Shown piece after piece: positions 2,314 through 9,502 of a stretch of 9,921 nucleotides of DNA (positions within the stretch are counted from its first letter, which is position 1; every line of letters begins with the position of its first letter). The translations under genes were made by a program, and so were the position numbers. Source of the DNA: a bacterium (GTDB lineage: Bacteria > Tectomicrobia > Entotheonellia > Entotheonellales > Entotheonellaceae); the NCBI GenBank assembly GCA_027294925.1, contig JAPULM010000345.1, positions 1 to 9,921 on the forward strand, read 5' to 3'. The notes below the pieces were generated by a model that was not told the origin of the DNA, did not search any database, and saw only the letters and a list, made by a program, of their open reading frames with translations.

Positions 2314-2345
2314 TTGACCCTCTACCTAGGTTCAAGGTTTATAAT
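2314..2345 (+). promoter_or_regulatory. MerR-family-type promoter with spacer dyad
   Basis: A -35 element TTGACC (2314-2319) and a perfect TATAAT -10 (2340-2345) are separated by an over-long spacer of 20 bp. The spacer region carries a 22-bp dyad (2317-2338) with outer arms ACC/GGT and core ACCTAGGT; 8 of 11 base pairs are symmetric. An over-long spacer with a dyad inside it is the hallmark of promoters activated by MerR-family metal sensors (MerR, ZntR, CueR), which untwist the DNA on metal binding. It is the only strong promoter before the six-gene metal operon and lies about 110 bp upstream of its first start codon. No merR-like gene is in this window, so the regulator would have to be encoded elsewhere. 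Confidence 0.65.
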
Positions 2346-2455
2346 ATAGGCAGTATTTTTTCTGTGACAAAGTGTCAAATTTTATGCAACTTCTATGCAA
2401 CCATAGAGGGCAAAAAAGAAGGTTTTCCACAGCCATATTGAGAAAGGGTTATCGT

Positions 2456-2713
2456 ATGGATGAACATAACTCCTTGAAAAATGTAGTAGTTTACTCATCA
2501 TCTTTGTGAAGCTCGTGCCACCACGTGAAAGAGTTTCTTTCCGATCATGGAGTTGTGTTTACGGATCATAATGTTGCGGAAGACCTTGAGGCCCGCAAAA
2601 CGCTGCTTGCCACCACGGGGCAGCAGGCAACGCCTGTCATCGTGGTAGGTGATGAGGTGATCGAGGGATTTGACCGCGGACGCCTGCAACGCGTCTTGAA
2701 TCTCACCACATAA
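2456..2713 (+). CDS. Glutaredoxin-like protein with in-frame UGA (UxxC), putative selenoprotein
   Basis: An 85-residue glutaredoxin/NrdH-type protein if the TGA at 2507-2509 is read through. The ATG at 2456 follows AAGGG at normal spacing. The first 17 codons give MDEHNSLKNVVVYSSSL, the typical beta1 strand; TGA is codon 18, then Ser-Ser-Cys21-His-His-Val-Lys-Glu-Phe-Leu. The TGA therefore replaces the first, nucleophilic cysteine of the CxxC motif. The rest is intact and typical: TPVIVVGDEVIEGFD with cis-Pro60, then RGRLQRVL and TAA. With UGA as a stop the product would be a useless 17-residue peptide. A hairpin (2527-2541) with loop AGUUU places G 23 nt after the UGA, as in bacterial SECIS elements. 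It is the first gene of the metal operon, 12 bp before the zinc-ribbon gene, and likely acts in thiol/selenol exchange or Hg handling in the cytoplasm. The alternative is a Cys-to-stop mutation. Confidence 0.8.
2527..2541 (+). promoter_or_regulatory. Candidate bacterial SECIS hairpin (glutaredoxin)
   Basis: A 5-bp stem GAAAG/CUUUC encloses the loop AGUUU, with G2533 in the second loop position. 23 nt separate the UGA (2507-2509) from this G, inside the range known for SelB-recognised bacterial SECIS elements (roughly 16-37 nt, G in the first or second loop position). A second possible small stem (CGUG/CACG) lies closer to the UGA. Confidence 0.5.
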
Positions 2714-2725
2714 GGAGTCGCCTTG

Positions 2726-3010
2726 ATGCAAACGGTGTGTCCGGGTTGCAGCGAGGAACGGATTTTCGGCACTGACGTACACGTTGGCGATATCGTGTCC
2801 TGTGATTGGTGTTCGGGCGCCTTGTTTCGCCTGCTACAAAATAATGGCGCGTATAGCTTACGTGAACTCCCACAGGCGTCCTGTCCGCTATGTGGCGCCA
2901 TGCTCCAGTTGCCGGATGATATACAGGCTGGCGCCAGTGCTGATCACTGCGGCCAGACGTTCGTGGTGACATTTGCCTATGGCGCTTATGCGTTGGAACA
3001 AAACAGCTAA
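2726..3010 (+). CDS. Small double zinc-ribbon protein
   Basis: A 94-residue soluble protein with a strong ribosome binding site (AAGGAG, 8 nt before ATG 2726). It has two zinc-ribbon-like halves. The first carries Cys5-x2-Cys8 and Cys26-x2-Cys29 (CPGC and CDWC). The second carries Cys53-x2-Cys56 (CPLC), then His74-Cys75 within ADHCG, and closes with QTFVVTFAYGAYALE. LPDDIQAG before the second pair is reminiscent of LysW-type zinc ribbons. No catalytic motif is seen. It lies between two selenoprotein candidates in the metal operon (12 and 18 bp gaps), so a role as a thiol-rich metal-binding or redox partner is plausible but inferred. All cysteines here use normal TGC/TGT codons and the stop is TAA. 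Confidence 0.75.
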   Translation: MQTVCPGCSEERIFGTDVHVGDIVSCDWCSGALFRLLQNNGAYSLRELPQASCPLCGAMLQLPDDIQAGASADHCGQTFVVTFAYGAYALEQNS

Positions 3011-3028
3011 CAATGAGAAGGTAGGACA

Positions 3029-3397
3029 ATGAGGCGAATGACCGGTCAACAGGTATTCAGAATCAGCGTCCTCCTGCTAATAGTGTGCCTTGCCATGAGT
3101 TGTAGCAACGCTGATTCCAGGTCTGGCGATACAACGGATCAATCGGGAACGATGGGCGCGCAAGCAGGAGAACATCTGCAGCGGATCACCTTGCGCATTA
3201 CGGGACTCTCGTGAGCGTCGTGAACGCGCATTGTGCGAATAGTCTTGGAAAGACTAGATGGTATACAGAGTGCAGAGGTGGATGCCCGTAAAGCGCAAGC
3301 TGTTGTTACCTACGACGCCGAGAAGGCGACGGTGGAGCAGATGATCGAGGCCGTGGGGCGCTCGGGCTTTGGCGCCGAGGAGATGGTGACGCAATGA
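3029..3397 (+). CDS. MerP/HMA-domain exported protein with two in-frame UGAs (UxxU), putative selenoprotein
   Basis: 122 residues if TGAs at 3212-3214 and 3221-3223 are read through. The start ATG follows AAGGTAGG. Residues 10-24 are a hydrophobic signal segment (FRISVLLLIVCLAMS) ending at Cys25, a plausible but non-ideal lipobox, then a Ser/Gly/Thr linker. From residue 52 it is an HMA domain: ITLRITGLS-U62-A-S-U65-TRIVRIVLERLDGIQSAEV, then VVTYDAEKAT and MIEAVGRSGFGA. The canonical motif is GMTCxxC, so both metal-ligand cysteines are TGA while everything around them is intact. This is the domain of MerP, the periplasmic Hg(II) carrier. A 6-bp hairpin (3240-3256, loop UGGAA) lies 23 nt after the second UGA. 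The stop TGA overlaps the merE start (ATGA), indicating translational coupling. The alternative is two independent nonsense mutations, which is unlikely. Confidence 0.85.
3240..3256 (+). promoter_or_regulatory. Candidate bacterial SECIS hairpin (HMA protein)
   Basis: A perfect 6-bp stem UAGUCU/AGACUA encloses the loop UGGAA, with G3247 in the second loop position. 23 nt separate the second UGA from this G and 32 nt separate the first, so one element could serve both. A smaller 4-bp stem (CGCA/UGCG, 3227-3237) lies nearer the codons. Confidence 0.6.
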
Positions 3398-3648
3398 GGT
3401 GGAAACGCTACCTGAGTGTCGGATTGGCCGTGCTCACCTGTCCCTGCCATCTGCCGCTCCTGCTGGGTGTGCTGGCGGGCACGGCACTTGGGGGATGGCT
3501 CAGCCGTTATACGTGGTTGGTGTTTCCAGCCATGCTGGGTGTCTTTGTCCTGTCGCTCTGGTATAGCGTCCGGGCATTCAACCGCCGCGGCGTATCGCCA
3601 AGCACGACGGCAGCCGGTCGAGCGGCAAACGGGTCAGAAGTCATCTGA
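3394..3648 (+). CDS. merE: MerE-like mercury transport membrane protein
   Basis: An 84-residue membrane protein close in size to MerE (about 78 residues). The signature LAVLTCPCHLPLLLGVLAGT is at residues 11-30 with the Cys16-Pro-Cys18 pair that defines MerE, followed by a second membrane segment WLVFPAMLGVFVLSLWYSV (41-59) and a basic tail AFNRRG. MerE moves Hg(II) and methylmercury across the inner membrane. Its cysteines use ordinary codons. The start overlaps the end of the HMA-protein gene by 4 nt (ATGA), and a GAGGAG ribosome binding site lies about 11 nt upstream. The stop is TGA; the frame beyond it closes after six codons, so read-through is not indicated. Confidence 0.85.
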   Translation: MRWKRYLSVGLAVLTCPCHLPLLLGVLAGTALGGWLSRYTWLVFPAMLGVFVLSLWYSVRAFNRRGVSPSTTAAGRAANGSEVI

Positions 3649-3682
3649 GGCGGCGTCAGGTGCCGGTAGAGGGGAAATTGTT

Positions 3683-4195
3683 TTGATCAGCAACGAGACG
3701 TTGCACCGGCCTGGCATACTGGGCCGAGGGGTGCGATTGGCAATGGGAATTGCTCTGCTTGTGCTGGGCATTGAAACGCTGCTTGCCCCCACCGATTGGA
3801 TCAGTGCAAGCGCACCACGCACACCTGCTATGTGGCTTGGCGCCGCGATCTGCTTCCATTTGTTGTGGGGCGTGCCCGATAAAGGGTTTCAGCGTGCATG
3901 GGGCCGCTGGCCGCAACTGATCACCATATGCTTAGCAATCCTAGCTATTGCCTACAACCTGGTACGCACCGGAAGCTGGTGGGGACAGCCTCTCGGTGCT
4001 CTCGTATTCGTGCTTATCGTTTATGTTACTGCGCACCTTGGGCTTTCCTTCGTTGTGGCGAGCTTTCTCGCCCACCCTGGGTGAGAAATGGGCGTGATCC
4101 CCCACGTCGTGGGGAAACTTACCGGCCGCCAGGCAGCCGTCCAGCCTTGACATATGGGATTAACCCGCTTGGATGAGTGGGAACAGCGCAGATAA
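3683..4195 (+). CDS. Small multi-spanning membrane protein with two in-frame UGAs, putative selenoprotein
   Basis: 170 residues if TGAs at 4082-4084 (codon 134) and 4148-4150 (codon 156) are read through. The start is a TTG with GAGGGG upstream; an internal ATG at 3743 (residue 21) is an alternative. About four membrane segments are seen (roughly 15-34, 49-63, 77-94, 103-130), ending YVTAHLGLSFVVASFLAHPG, then U134-EMGVIPHVVGKLTGRQ, AAVQP-U156-HMG, and LTRLDEWEQRR before TAA. I recall similar proteins with Gly-Cys-Glu-Met at the first site and a C-terminal Cys-Pro...LDxWE tail, which would make both TGAs cysteine positions; this is from memory. The tail is open apart from the TGAs, and the TAA ends 25 bp before the next ATG. 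SECIS-like hairpins follow both TGAs. Otherwise the protein is 133 residues and still mostly intact. The role is presumably metal transport or its membrane partner. Confidence 0.65.
4100..4114 (+). promoter_or_regulatory. Candidate bacterial SECIS hairpin (membrane protein, first UGA)
   Basis: A GC-rich 6-bp stem CCCCAC/GUGGGG encloses the tight loop GUC, with G4106 in the first loop position. 21 nt separate the UGA (4082-4084) from this G. It has no U-run after it (GAAACUU follows), so it is not a convincing terminator. Confidence 0.5.
4164..4181 (+). promoter_or_regulatory. Candidate bacterial SECIS hairpin (membrane protein, second UGA)
   Basis: A 6-bp stem CCCGCU/AGUGGG (one G-U pair) encloses the loop UGGAUG, with G4171 in the second position, 20 nt after the UGA at 4148-4150. 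The loop starts UGG, as does the loop of the HMA-protein hairpin. Confidence 0.45.
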
Positions 4196-4220
4196 AAATG
4201 AGCCGAGGGAAAGAGGTGCG

Positions 4221-4577
4221 ATGGCAAGACAAATCGTTGGCACGCTCGGGTCGATTTTTGCAGCACTATGTTGTATCGGTACGCCAGCGTTGCTGGCATT
4301 GTTGGCAAGTATCGGCGCAGGGTTTCTCATTCGCGACGTGATTCTAGTGCCCTTACTGGTGGTGTTTTTGGCTATCCATGTTTGGGGTATCCAACGATCG
4401 CTGCGCAGGCATGGGAACGAAATGCCCCGTATTGTCGCTATCGTATGCAGCGTGGTGATTATTGTCGCCGTATGGTTTTCGCCATCTCTAGTGCTTCTGG
4501 GGCTAGCTGGCCTGATCGCCGTATCCGGGTGGGATATCTACTCGTGTAGGACGGCTGTTGAGCAGAAACAAGCGTGA
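4221..4577 (+). CDS. MerC/MerT-like mercuric transport membrane protein
   Basis: 118 residues from ATG 4221, chosen because AGAGGTGCG lies directly upstream; the frame is open further upstream but that part overlaps the previous gene. The first membrane helix, VGTLGSIFAALCCIGTPALL, carries the vicinal Cys17-Cys18 pair typical of MerT/MerC-type Hg(II) importers. It is followed by helices at about 37-55, 70-86 and 88-105, and a short tail with Cys109. The double-Cys helix and four-helix layout are closest to MerC-like proteins. Mercuric ions would be taken from the periplasmic carrier (here the HMA protein) and passed to cytosolic thiols. Cysteines use normal codons; the stop is TGA. It is the last gene of the operon, and no merA or merB is found before the convergent thiolase-like gene. 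Confidence 0.7.
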   Translation: MARQIVGTLGSIFAALCCIGTPALLALLASIGAGFLIRDVILVPLLVVFLAIHVWGIQRSLRRHGNEMPRIVAIVCSVVIIVAVWFSPSLVLLGLAGLIAVSGWDIYSCRTAVEQKQA

Positions 4578-4647: not shown

Positions 4648-5832
4648 TTAATAAGGCTCATTGACGAAGATGAAGGTGGTCCCTTGTACGATGGGCGCGC
4701 TGGCACCAACAAAGGATACATTGGCATCTTTGACCTGCCGTTCACCGGCACGGCCAGTGACTTGCATCGCCCCTTCAATGATTTGCCAGAGGCCATGGAT
4801 ACGGCCGGCGCTCAGACTACCGCCAAACGTGTTGAGGGGCAGCTCGCCATCCAGCTCGATGCGTCCGTCCTGAATGAAATCCAGCGCTTCGCCCTCCTGG
4901 CAGAAACCGTAGGACTCCAGGCCGTAGATAACTGAGGCGGAGAAGCCATCGTAGATCTGCGCCACATCCACATCTTTGGGGGTGAAGCCTGAGCGTTCCC
5001 AGGTCAGGCGAGATGAACTGCTGCCGGCTTCCATGTAGTTGCTCAGGCTACCGATGCGTCCAGCCACTTCAAAGGCGAGGCGCTGACCGTAGCCGGCAAT
5101 ATAGGCAGGGGGCGGTTTCAAATCGCGGGCGCGATCGGCTGTGGTCAGCACAATCGCAACAGCTCCCTGCACCGGGATATCGCAGTCGAAGAGGCAAAAT
5201 GGATAAGCGATCATTCTGGCGTTTAAATAATCTTCTCGCGTCAAGGGCGTTTGGTAAAAGTAGGCTCTAGGGTTTTTGTTGGCGTGTTTACGTTGGGTAA
5301 CCGCAAGGGTCGCCATCTTGTCGCGATTCTGATTGTGCTGTTCTAGCCAGCGGGTGTAGGCGACCGCCATGCCCTGTCCCGGGCCGCCAAAGCCGTACGG
5401 GGCGGTGAACTGCGCCGGTCCTTGGGCGTAGGCGCCGGGCAGATTTTGGTAGGTCCCAGTGGGATTGTGCATGGCACGCCAGACCACTGCATAGTTGCAA
5501 ACTCCGGCCAGTAGCGCGTTGACCGCCTGCTGCACGGCGCCGCCAATATTTACCGTGTCTACCTGGACGTGCCAGCTCAGGTTTGGCAGTTTCAGCATCG
5601 CCATCATGCAGTTGACCGACACGACTGAGATGCCGTCCACAATGGCGTGACCCGTGGCCGGTAACGCCGGGTAGGTCGCCAGTCCATCAATATTTGACAT
5701 CTCTAGGCCGGCATCTTCTACAGCCGCTCTGGCTGCCTGCAGCGCATGCGCCGCGAGGGGGACCTGGGCCGAACGGGTGATGTCGGAAAATCCCACCCCG
5801 CTGATGGCAACTTTACATCTGTTCTCCCACAT
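4648..5832 (-). CDS. Thiolase-like protein (non-decarboxylating type, catalytic Cys not evident)
   Basis: 394 residues from the ATG at 5830-5832 (MWENRCKVAISGVGFSD), which has AGGAG 9 nt upstream. The frame extends further upstream only through a palindromic repeat, which I exclude. The fold is recognisable: N-terminal GVGFSDITRSAQVPLAAHA, central NIGGAVQQAVNALLAG, DVAQIYDGFSASVIYGLESYGFC (285-311, Tyr294), and NTFGGSLSAGRIHG (334-347). The usual nucleophile segment has no catalytic Cys, the His-Glu-Ala-Phe motif is replaced by Tyr-Asp-Gly-Phe, and the C-terminal CxGxG is FVGAS. This is the lipid-transfer/SCP2-like subgroup that pairs with DUF35 proteins. The characterised Ltp2-DUF35 members are retro-aldolases in steroid side-chain degradation, not thiolases. 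It is probably co-transcribed with the DUF35 gene upstream (gap 87 bp). The substrate is unknown. Confidence 0.8.
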   Translation of the reverse strand: MWENRCKVAISGVGFSDITRSAQVPLAAHALQAARAAVEDAGLEMSNIDGLATYPALPATGHAIVDGISVVSVNCMMAMLKLPNLSWHVQVDTVNIGGAVQQAVNALLAGVCNYAVVWRAMHNPTGTYQNLPGAYAQGPAQFTAPYGFGGPGQGMAVAYTRWLEQHNQNRDKMATLAVTQRKHANKNPRAYFYQTPLTREDYLNARMIAYPFCLFDCDIPVQGAVAIVLTTADRARDLKPPPAYIAGYGQRLAFEVAGRIGSLSNYMEAGSSSSRLTWERSGFTPKDVDVAQIYDGFSASVIYGLESYGFCQEGEALDFIQDGRIELDGELPLNTFGGSLSAGRIHGLWQIIEGAMQVTGRAGERQVKDANVSFVGASAPIVQGTTFIFVNEPY

Positions 5833-5867
5833 CAAACATGTCTCCTGCGGAAATACCTTCTTCTGAT

Positions 5868-7058: not shown

Positions 7059-8054
7059 CTATGCAGACGCCATCGCCCACTGCGATGGTGCTTCCGCCAT
7101 GTGGCGTTCAGCTGCCAACAGCTCGCGTTCGAGCAGGCGCACCACGGCCCTCATTCCGTTTAGACCGTGGTGTTCCTCAACCGCCGGAGAGTAGTTGGTG
7201 GTCCCATTAATGTCATAGGTAATCTTGTTCCCATGCCGATCTTCAATAAACTCGATGCCGGCGAGATCAATGCCATTCGCCTGCATAAAGGTAATGTATT
7301 GATCGATAATAGGGTCGTGGAATCCCTCTCGGAGAGCAAAGAGGTTCTGACGGTCAAACACCCCGTTTGCCGGACTGTTGGTCGTGGGGCAAAAGGCATC
7401 ACCGGTTTCGCAGCGTTCGGCTGGACAGAGTTGGAAGCCCTGGCTAGTGTCGGAGCGGATGGCGTATAAAAGTTCACCATCTACAATCTCCACACGGGTG
7501 ATATATGGCTCAGGTGCCTCGATATATTCCTGCAGCAGGGTGATATGATCAACCGGTTTTTCAAACTCCGGTGAGTCGACATAGGCATTGAAGGCATTGA
7601 GCGAACGAAACAGCTGCACGCCAAGTCCCTTCCCACCCCGGTTGTGCTTGGTAATGAAGGGCAGGGGCATCTGCAGGGCCGCCGTTTTGAGAGCCTCCGA
7701 CCCACCTGAAACGGCGATCGTATGAGGGGTGAGCAAACCCGCTCTACGGAGGGCGGTGTATTGCTGGACTTTGCTCATTTCCAGGGCCAAAGCTCGACTT
7801 CCATTGATCACACGCCGGTCATAACTTTCGAGCCACGTGAGCAGTTCTCGCATATAATCCACACTCTCACGATGGCCACGCGTATGTGACGAGGGACTCA
7901 TCCGGTTCAAGAACACCCCATCCGGTGGTTCTTGACTCAAGTCGATCGCCCCGGTGTGAACAAACCATGCGTCGTAAGGCAGGGCAGCAAGGTCCAACTC
8001 GCGTCGCAGGGGTGGCAGCCAATCTTGATTTTCATACAACAGGTAGATTTTCAT
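7059..8054 (-). CDS. ATP-grasp ligase, RimK-like
   Basis: 331 residues from ATG 8052-8054 (MKIYLLYENQDWLPPLRREL), preceded by AAAGGTGATGAA; the longer open frame upstream runs through a terminator hairpin and is rejected. The N-terminal domain contains NRMSPSSHTRGH (50-61) and NGSRALALEMSKVQQY (84-99). The ATP-grasp domain follows: PFITKHNRGGKGLGVQLF (132-149, nucleotide-binding lysine and glycine-rich loop), LLQEYIEAPEPYITRVEIVDG (173-193), and the metal-binding end GIDLAGIEFIED (261-272) with DINGTTNYSP (281-290). These enzymes form an acyl-phosphate and ligate it to an amine, as in RimK or LysX. The substrate is unknown, and no carrier protein of LysW type is adjacent. The next gene upstream on the same strand is a polysaccharide deacetylase, separated by a strong terminator. 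The stop is TAG. Confidence 0.8.
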   Translation of the reverse strand: MKIYLLYENQDWLPPLRRELDLAALPYDAWFVHTGAIDLSQEPPDGVFLNRMSPSSHTRGHRESVDYMRELLTWLESYDRRVINGSRALALEMSKVQQYTALRRAGLLTPHTIAVSGGSEALKTAALQMPLPFITKHNRGGKGLGVQLFRSLNAFNAYVDSPEFEKPVDHITLLQEYIEAPEPYITRVEIVDGELLYAIRSDTSQGFQLCPAERCETGDAFCPTTNSPANGVFDRQNLFALREGFHDPIIDQYITFMQANGIDLAGIEFIEDRHGNKITYDINGTTNYSPAVEEHHGLNGMRAVVRLLERELLAAERHMAEAPSQWAMASA

Positions 8055-8121
8055 TTCATCACCTTTTACCATAATTTCCGCTCTGGACAGGGGCTGGTGC
8101 TTAAAAAATTTATGGGTAACT

Positions 8122-8157
8122 AAAAAAGCCCACGACCTCGGTAAGGTCGTGGGCTTT
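8122..8157 (-). terminator. Strong rho-independent terminator
   Basis: A perfect 14-bp stem, AAAGCCCACGACCT (8125-8138) with its complement at 8144-8157, encloses the five-base loop CGGTA; on the minus strand it is followed by six T. It lies about 70 bp upstream of the ATP-grasp start codon and about 430 bp downstream of the deacetylase stop. It could end the deacetylase transcript, end a small RNA from the promoter near 8386, or attenuate the ATP-grasp gene. Confidence 0.8.
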
Positions 8158-8584
8158 ACGAACTGGCACATGGGTGCGATGCATAACGACTAACTCATCC
8201 ACTTCCTCCCGAGCTATAGGCAAAACACTCCACACAACAGCACGTACCACCGGTCTGATGGGTACGAAGTGAAGTGGTTCCTTGGATGACTGTCGCGTTA
8301 AGGTTCATCGCTTCACGGGTTGAGAAAATCTGTTATTCGCAAGTGTAATCAAACCTACCTTATCATAGTATCTTCAATCCTGTCAACTCCCCCCTCGACC
8401 GGCGTTCCCCTGCCGTTCTTACCCTCGAAGACTTGTTGGTCTCGGTCGAAACCGTCGCCATAACCAGGGTTTGACACGTGCGCCGACTCGATGCGTTGCT
8501 CCTATTCTCACAGGAAAGCCACTCCTACCTCAGCTTCGATACCACCGTCTAGGTCTTGCTCTCTCCTTTCAGGCCCCACCACCG
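8158..8584 (-). other. Gene-free region with promoter-like and structured sequence
   Basis: No protein gene with a start codon and ribosome binding site is seen on either strand. On the minus strand a perfect TTGACA (+ 8381-8386) is followed 16-18 bp later by GATAAG/TAAGGT (8357-8364), a plausible promoter. The transcript of about 230 nt would end at the terminator at 8122. It has several self-complementary pieces, including CGUACC/GGUACG about 12 nt apart and CCACUUC/GAAGUGG enclosing them. The stretch from 8390 to 8584 shows nothing recognisable. Confidence 0.35.
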
Positions 8585-9502
8585 CTAGTGGGCGAGCGTT
8601 GGCGTGGCAGCGCCGAGCTCAGGAATCGGCCCCTCATAGTATGGCAGACGGTCGATGCGTGGCGTCCATGTGCCGTCCGCCATGACCTGCTGCACGTGTG
8701 TGGTGATGTCCTCGAGGGTGGCGAACCAGACCTGGCCCTTGTCGTGCATATATTCGATGAGTTTGGCAATTGCCAGACACCGGGCTAAGCGCCCGCTCAA
8801 GAACGGATGCCAGACAGCGATCCACATCCCACCATATTCCCACATGGCATCAAATTCAGCCCGGTAGACGTCCATCCCCTGTTCAGGCGACTTGGGCTGC
8901 ATCATATAGGACATATCTCTCGACGACATGAAATGTGGCCAATCATCCAGGGCGTAGTGCGTTGGCAACTCGACCAACTGGCCCTTGTCGGTCTCCAAGA
9001 TATACGGAATGTCGTCGCCCATCAGCGACGCATCGTAGGTAAAACCTTCTTGAATGAGAAACTCGAGGCTGTGGCGAGAGAACCGGTAACTGGGCGCGCG
9101 GAATCCGCGTGGCCGATCACCGGTCATGCGCTCGATGACGTCGCTGGCGCGCCTGAGCCAGGCGAGTTCTTCGTCGGGCTCACACCCATTCGGATGCTCA
9201 TGCAGGTAGCCGTGATGCGCGACCTCATGCCCGCCTTTCAGGATGGTCTCGACCGCGGCTGGATACCGCTCCATGGACCAACCAGGCAGGAAGAAGGTCT
9301 GCCGCATGCCGAAGCGCGCGTATAGGTCGACAATGCGCGGCACGGCGACTTCAGGACCGTAGCGCAGCATCGAGATGGCGGCCACCCGCGTATCGGCAGA
9401 CGTATGGTGCGCAAGATGTAAACTGCTGTCAGCGTCCATGTCAAACGTGAAGGCGACGGCGCATCGTGCCCCGTGCGGCCAGGGAATCGGATTTTGAATC
9501 AT
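8585..9502 (-). CDS. Polysaccharide deacetylase-family hydrolase (HpPgdA/PuuE-like)
   Basis: 305 residues, NodB-type carbohydrate esterase 4 fold, without a signal peptide. The ATG (9500-9502) follows GAGGGAG at about 7 nt. Motifs in order: TFDMDAD (19-25, catalytic/metal Asp), HEVAHHGYLHEHP (92-104, metal His97 and His101), RAPSYRFS (135-142), and MWIAVWHPFLSGR (226-238, His232 near the active site). The cytoplasmic, DMDAD-containing layout matches the HpPgdA/PuuE allantoinase-like subgroup more than classical secreted chitin or peptidoglycan deacetylases, so the substrate may be a peptidoglycan precursor, a small amide or a cyclic imide. No purine-catabolism genes are adjacent. The stop is TAG. 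Confidence 0.85.
   Translation of the reverse strand: MIQNPIPWPHGARCAVAFTFDMDADSSLHLAHHTSADTRVAAISMLRYGPEVAVPRIVDLYARFGMRQTFFLPGWSMERYPAAVETILKGGHEVAHHGYLHEHPNGCEPDEELAWLRRASDVIERMTGDRPRGFRAPSYRFSRHSLEFLIQEGFTYDASLMGDDIPYILETDKGQLVELPTHYALDDWPHFMSSRDMSYMMQPKSPEQGMDVYRAEFDAMWEYGGMWIAVWHPFLSGRLARCLAIAKLIEYMHDKGQVWFATLEDITTHVQQVMADGTWTPRIDRLPYYEGPIPELGAATPTLAH

Follow-up and report, generated by a model that had tools for sequence, protein, structure and literature searches.

Gene content and reading frames of the locus

The stretch of DNA analysed (hereafter the window) comprised 9,921 nucleotides of contig JAPULM010000345.1 (assembly GCA_027294925.1), from a bacterium of the Entotheonellaceae. 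According to its open reading frames (ORFs), positions 2456-4577 held a mercury resistance (mer)-type operon of six close-packed genes in the same direction, encoding in this order a glutaredoxin (Grx), a zinc-ribbon protein (ZnR), an HMA-domain protein (HMA), MerE, a membrane protein (Mem) and a MerC-like protein (Table 1). Five in-frame TGA codons, which likely encode selenocysteine (Sec; U in motifs), were present in three of these genes: at codon 18 of Grx, codons 62 and 65 of HMA, and codons 134 and 156 of Mem.

Internal TGA was restricted to Grx, HMA and Mem, and was absent from the other nine of the 12 window genes checked. Internal TAA or TAG occurred in none of the 12, and frameshifts were absent from the operon genes. 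The HMA, MerE and MerC-like genes were themselves terminated by TGA, so the reading of TGA depends on context, and it does not stand for an amino acid everywhere. Cysteine (Cys) codons were TGT or TGC in MerE, the MerC-like gene and ZnR. Matches above the Pfam gathering score were obtained for Glutaredoxin, the LysW-like zinc ribbon, HMA, MerE and MerC, and those of Glutaredoxin and HMA extended across the TGAs. The TTGACC and TATAAT elements upstream of Grx, with their 20-bp spacer, are compatible with a MerR-type promoter. No merR gene was found among the ORFs of the window, nor was merA (ORF list, Pfam and NCBIfam); merT was also not in the window.

An earlier sequence-only reading had described a six-gene mer-type set with five in-frame TGAs in three proteins, and the frames and Pfam matches confirmed it. 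Its further claims also held: the TGAs were limited to Grx, HMA and Mem with no other stops, the metal-binding Cys of MerE, the MerC-like protein and ZnR had normal codons, an element compatible with a MerR-type promoter was present at 2314-2345, and merA was absent from the window. The same reading had placed the TGAs at Cys positions where the family was clear, and this was extended to both sites of Mem: all five TGAs aligned with Cys of relatives, by family in Grx and HMA, and by 10/10 full-length homologues in Mem.

Table 1. Positions of the operon genes, in-frame TGA codons, promoter-like site and SECIS-like (selenocysteine insertion sequence) hairpins in the window
Feature	Position	Strand	Basis or remark
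MerR-type promoter-like site: TTGACC, 20-bp spacer, TATAAT	2314..2345	+	Sequence read
Grx, UxxC glutaredoxin (UXX-star/YruB type), predicted selenoprotein	2456..2713	+	Pfam Glutaredoxin 6.4e-15
TGA, predicted Sec18 of Grx	2507..2509	+	TGA in 34/34 relatives aligned there
SECIS-like hairpin for Grx TGA, loop GTT	2524..2543	+	Weak, -4.7 kcal/mol
ZnR, double zinc-ribbon protein (LysW-like ribbon)	2726..3010	+	PF21344 1.3e-7; all Cys codons normal
HMA lipoprotein with UxxU, MerP-like, predicted double selenoprotein	3029..3397	+	PF00403 8e-13
TGA, predicted Sec62 of HMA	3212..3214	+	Aligned with Cys of relatives
TGA, predicted Sec65 of HMA	3221..3223	+	Aligned with Cys of relatives
SECIS-like hairpin common to both HMA TGAs, loop GGA	3226..3273	+	
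MerE-like mercury transporter, CPC motif, normal codons	3394..3648	+	PF05052 1.1e-13, above gathering score
Mem, four long hydrophobic helices and Sec tail, predicted double selenoprotein	3683..4195	+	TTG start; membrane location from sequence
TGA, predicted Sec134 of Mem	4082..4084	+	Cys in 10/10 full-length homologues
SECIS-like hairpin for Mem Sec134, loop GTC	4100..4114	+	
TGA, predicted Sec156 of Mem	4148..4150	+	Cys in 10/10 full-length homologues
SECIS-like hairpin for Mem Sec156, loop GGAT	4164..4181	+	
MerC-like mercury importer, CC motif, normal codons	4221..4577	+	PF03203 6.7e-13, above gathering score

Conservation of the in-frame TGA codons

Relatives were taken from 40 fetched loci of Methylomirabilota, 20 around matches to the UxxU HMA and 20 around the best Grx matches. 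In the 34 aligned Grx relatives, the second redox position was Cys throughout; one further Grx match among the 40 loci stopped short of the TGA position and was not included in the 34. A Grx search of 95 Methylomirabilota genomes (E-value 0.001) gave matches in 79 of them, and the 72 best-scoring rows all contained an in-frame TGA, one of them with a TAA besides. The Grx of the window scored 73.3 bits with TIGR02196, below the cut-off, and 49.3 bits with the Uxx-star glutaredoxin NF041212 (curated cut-off 66). Tandem glutaredoxin matches were observed on contig C43 of genome G014 (497-715 and 799-1026), with an in-frame TGA in each.

Both HMA TGAs were kept in 20/22 aligned copies, which are not independent because 21 of the 22 came from loci chosen with the UxxU model; the other two copies had TGC or TGT at one site. 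The HMA protein scored 72.6 bits with the UxxU metal-binding family NF041115 (curated cut-off 95) and 51.4 bits with the NCBIfam MerP model (cut-off 92.55), with UxxU replacing CxxC. Its N-terminus read as a signal followed by an AMSC lipobox, which predicts a location outside the inner membrane. The nearest solved relatives of HMA were copper ATPases. A second UxxU HMA protein was encoded on the opposite strand in L056 (2541-2738) and L057 (8189-8470), in the latter adjoining a long ORF that by eye resembled a metal P-type ATPase; UxxU pairs are thus not confined to the mer-type operon. MerE scored 66.1 bits with NF010310 (cut-off 80), and the MerC-like protein was below the cut-offs of both the MerC and the MerF models of NCBIfam.

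Position 29 of ZnR was TGA in 12/23 and Cys in 11/23 aligned relatives, and was Cys in the window. Position 8 was TGA in 4/22 and Cys in 18/22 relatives (one off-register match in L103 was omitted). These sites were outside the selection criteria and varied between TGA and Cys by relative, which indicates an exchange between Cys and Sec there.

No family was found for Mem above the cut-off in Pfam or NCBIfam, and its Cys homologues, scanned against Pfam (three) and NCBIfam (two), matched no family at all. Homologues numbered 16 proteins in a first search and 44, the window's own copy included, in an alignment search. Twenty-nine of the 44, again with the window copy, ended exactly in PG, directly before the first TGA; ten ran on as PGCEM with a second Cys beyond, and five fitted neither pattern. 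Both Cys of the full-length homologues fell on the two TGAs of the window in the alignment, and a further Cys copy in L115 had the same two Cys. It is likely from these ends that gene callers cut Mem-type genes short at the TGA. Mem was predicted to form four long helices; in the tail, for which confidence was lower, Sec134 opens one helix and Sec156 precedes the final one. The four long helices are predicted to be membrane helices.

Probable selenocysteine decoding and SECIS-like hairpins

A transfer RNA for Sec (tRNA-Sec) was found above the cut-off in 79/95 genomes, and SelB in 5/6 chosen genomes, the match in the sixth being partial and located at the end of a contig, all of them from the related phylum Methylomirabilota (the phylum of L001) and not from the window's own host. 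Sec decoding is presumed in the host of the window.

Hairpins were sought with a home-made scan that called for a stem of at least 5 pairs, a loop 14-37 bases past the TGA and a G in the first two loop bases, in accordance with the general rule for bacterial SECIS elements. The rule was satisfied by 5/5 TGAs of the operon reading frames compared with 116/340 of the remaining TGAs on the two strands of the window. When only hairpins of at most -8 kcal/mol were counted, 4/5 of the operon TGAs had one, compared with 37/340 other TGAs and 13% of codon shuffles. Among relatives, hairpins followed the TGA in 34/34 Grx, 40/43 HMA and 15/16 ZnR cases, and the corresponding codon-shuffle controls passed in 81/170, 140/215 and 53/80 cases. 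ZnR provided the best control, with hairpins at 15/16 TGAs compared with 83/151 Cys codons (Fisher p = 0.002). No family was found in an Rfam search of the window.

Recurrence and gene company in relatives

The cluster was not unique to one assembly, and its core was present in at least 13 other, independent genomes. MerT adjoined HMA in 18/20 UxxU-HMA loci. Grx, ZnR, MerT and HMA occurred together in 14/20 of these loci, from 13 genomes. Their order was Grx-ZnR-MerT-HMA in 13 loci (L044-L047, L050-L052, L054 and L056-L060, with L056 cut inside Grx), several of them with MerF, MerE or MerC in between, and was different in L048. Grx and ZnR were not found in the remaining 6/20 (L042, L043, L049, L053, L055 and L061). 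ZnR came after Grx in 9/20 loci around the best Grx matches. Neighbourhood searches, of a kind suggested by the sequence-only reading, recovered the Grx/ZnR/MerT/HMA core in relatives, but the full six-gene set was seen only in the window.

In 11/40 loci the region upstream of Grx held a divergent MerR-family gene, at a distance of up to about 1.05 kb; L045 had a truncated one in addition to these, and in some loci an ArsR gene took its place. For two MerR proteins tested the best model was TIGR02051 MerR, below the cut-off, with CueR nearly equal. In L058, MerF was above the cut-off, and ArsR scored 50.6 bits with TsoR (cut-off 115). A gene resembling MerA or glutathione reductase was present in 3/40 relative loci. 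An FAD/NAD reductase with the motif GTCALRGCDPKK came directly after the UxxU HMA in L058 (6347-7696) and matched the glutathione reductase and MerA models, both below the cut-off. This reductase could be the partner of the glutaredoxin.

The Cys form of Mem had matches in 3/369 genomes (E-value 0.001; one strong and two weak) of the class to which the genome of L003 belongs (Aquisalimonas, a gammaproteobacterium). In the strong match, L115, the Cys-form Mem followed MerT-like and MerP-like genes with a divergent MerR-family gene beside them. The MerT-like and MerP-like proteins were below the NCBIfam cut-offs, MerP was the best model for the HMA of L115, and the best model for its regulator was CueR, ahead of MerR. 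The arrangement in L115, the one case read, places the Cys form of Mem in mer-type company as well.

Proposed function and alternative explanations

It is moderately probable that this mer-like cluster employs selenols, by way of the five likely Sec, in addition to thiols in order to capture and import Hg(II). Hg(II) is bound more tightly by selenols than by thiols. The gene company points to Hg(II) as the putative substrate, and both the metal and the sequence of the transfer steps are inferred from family and motif. The course proposed follows by analogy the roles of MerP, MerT and MerC in the classical system. Entry of Hg(II) would lead a MerR-type regulator, with its gene outside the window, to activate the promoter at 2314-2345. 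On the outer side of the inner membrane, the HMA lipoprotein would capture Hg(II) by UxxU, as MerP does by CxxC, and would hand it to MerE and the MerC-like importer, which would accept it through their Cys pairs. Mem may bind metal at the membrane face and would act as a helper or further acceptor through its two tail Sec. Inside, the UxxC Grx and ZnR would take over Hg(II) or free Hg-blocked thiols, and the endpoint would be either a reductase encoded elsewhere or a bound Hg-Se species. A more far-reaching form of the proposal is rather unlikely: a selenol pathway in which Hg(II) passes through the UxxU lipoprotein, the double-Sec Mem, the UxxC Grx and ZnR, ends bound to Se and is not reduced by MerA, with the Se supply setting Hg tolerance across uncultured lineages.

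Several results weigh against Sec-based Hg(II) capture, together with the limits given above on the HMA copies and on the decoding counts. All six genes were below curated NCBIfam cut-offs. The 29 shorter Mem homologues were known as proteins only, with the codon after PG unread. Mem was found in 0/95 Methylomirabilota genomes, an empty search answer that alone proves nothing, and the complete six-gene set was therefore seen only in the window. The hairpin baseline was high: for the five TGAs, codon shuffles passed the rule in 51% of cases. Cys codons scored as high as TGAs in Grx (31/34) and HMA (6/6), because they lie a few bases from the TGA. The hairpin of Grx was weak (-4.7 kcal/mol), one hairpin served two TGAs in HMA, and a weak hairpin was also present at 2/3 true TGA stops of the operon. 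The near-tie between MerR and CueR, and the first rank of CueR in L115, make Cu(I) or another soft metal possible as the substrate.

An unlikely alternative is that Sec serves redox repair, with Grx and the other selenoproteins reducing disulfides or metal-blocked thiols and Cys proteins moving the metal. UxxC glutaredoxins are a redox family, and MerE and the MerC-like importer of the window retain Cys, both of which agree with such a role. However, the UxxU of HMA sits where the metal-binding CxxC itself would be, Cys positions of the zinc ribbon also hold TGA in relatives, and MerT adjoins HMA in nearly all UxxU-HMA loci.

It is quite unlikely that the substrate of the cluster is not inorganic Hg(II) but an organometal or a different soft metal or metalloid (Cu(I), Ag(I), Cd(II) or Pb(II)). 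The regulators scored near the CueR, CadR and ZntR models, HMA domains carry copper too, and the best solved HMA relatives were copper ATPases, whereas the operon of the window includes the MerE and MerC families, MerT stands beside HMA in 18/20 loci, MerF exceeded its cut-off in L058, and MerP was the best model for the L115 HMA.

That the TGAs are real stops or errors in decayed or mis-assembled genes is very improbable. The window is one record, and gene predictions of Mem homologues end at the place of the first TGA, but the TGA is shared by Grx in all aligned relatives, the ten longer Mem homologues keep the same tail with Cys at both places, and the frames beyond the TGAs match families with no TAA, TAG or frameshift. 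A host in which TGA always specifies some other amino acid, as it does under codes 4 or 25, would account for internal TGAs in three genes and is scarcely credible, given the TGA terminators of HMA, MerE and the MerC-like gene, the nine other checked genes free of internal TGA, and the position of all five internal TGAs on Cys sites.

To our knowledge, Se-Hg antagonism has mostly been described from animals, as a toxic side reaction. If Sec-based capture of Hg(II) is true, a conserved operon with Sec at metal-ligand positions would mean that Se-Hg chemistry has been put to use in evolution, would explain what several catalogued but so far unexplained selenoprotein families do, and would add a double-Sec membrane family unnamed in Pfam and NCBIfam. 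The results also flag genes likely shortened at TGA by gene callers (29/44 Mem homologues), and offer a testable explanation for some of the large selenoproteome described for one Methylomirabilota genome in available passages of the review PMC13188914.

Neighbouring genes

Downstream of the operon, a thiolase/lipid-transfer-type protein (4648-5835) had 83-90% identity to genes in 12/95 Methylomirabilota genomes, and a deacetylase of the window near it had at most 39% identity in the same 12 genomes. The contrast between the two identities suggests horizontal transfer as possible. A RimK-like ATP-grasp protein (7059-8171) scored 19.9 bits, just below the Pfam cut-off of 21, and was followed by a polysaccharide-deacetylase-like gene (8585-9502; NCBIfam).

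Comparison with known systems

The available passages of the 2026 review PMC13188914 list NF041115 as a metal-binding protein (putative mercuric reductase) and the UXX-star families, implicate most Sec-containing transporter-type proteins in resistance to metals, Hg among them, or metalloids while leaving their roles open, and mention a Methylomirabilota genome with 63 predicted selenoproteins. Similar entries were present in the available part of PMC9312934, and a MerP selenoprotein was tallied in 2008 (PMC2398784, in the part available). None of the terms sought were present in PMC5029168. A Sec-containing mer operon, Mem and a Sec zinc ribbon of the ZnR kind were undescribed among the matches listed, mainly of open-access literature. 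The sequence-only reading had considered the system possibly undescribed, which did not stand for its parts, since the UxxU HMA (NF041115) and the UXX-star Grx are curated and, as far as the available passages go, reviewed (PMC13188914), and a Sec MerP has been tallied (PMC2398784); it stood for the whole operon and for Mem with its two Sec, neither of which was found described among those matches. The individual UxxU-HMA and UXX-star families are already catalogued, and within the literature covered the complete operon, the double-Sec Mem and the Sec zinc ribbon seem new.

The HMA domain with two in-frame TGAs resembles the UxxU metal-binding (seleno)protein family NF041115, but is under its cut-off, is a lipoprotein and is part of a mer-type operon. 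Grx is small and glutaredoxin-like with Sec at the first redox position, as in the UXX-star/YruB families (NF041212, NF041114, NF041211 and TIGR02196), but was under all curated cut-offs and opens a mer-type operon. By its NCBI name, NF045683 (MerT/CopZ fusion-like heavy metal transport selenoprotein) combines MerT and HMA parts with Sec; it is one fused protein, whereas the window is without MerT and its HMA scored 37.7 bits (cut-off 375). The SAO and Tso operons (Haft and Gwadz 2023; Haft and Tolstoy 2025, as cited in available passages of PMC13188914) are similar in having several selenoprotein genes per operon and a suggested link to metals or organometals; NCBIfam models named for SAO or Tso had no match at an E-value of 0.1 among the window proteins scanned. 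Compared with the classical mer operon (merR-merT-merP-merC/E/F-merA), the window lacks merA, merT and merR, and adds UxxU in HMA, the UxxC Grx, ZnR and the double-Sec Mem. It shares with that operon MerE, the MerC-like protein, the MerP-like HMA and the MerR-type promoter-like site, and in L115 the Cys form of Mem comes after MerT-like and MerP-like genes, next to a MerR-family gene.

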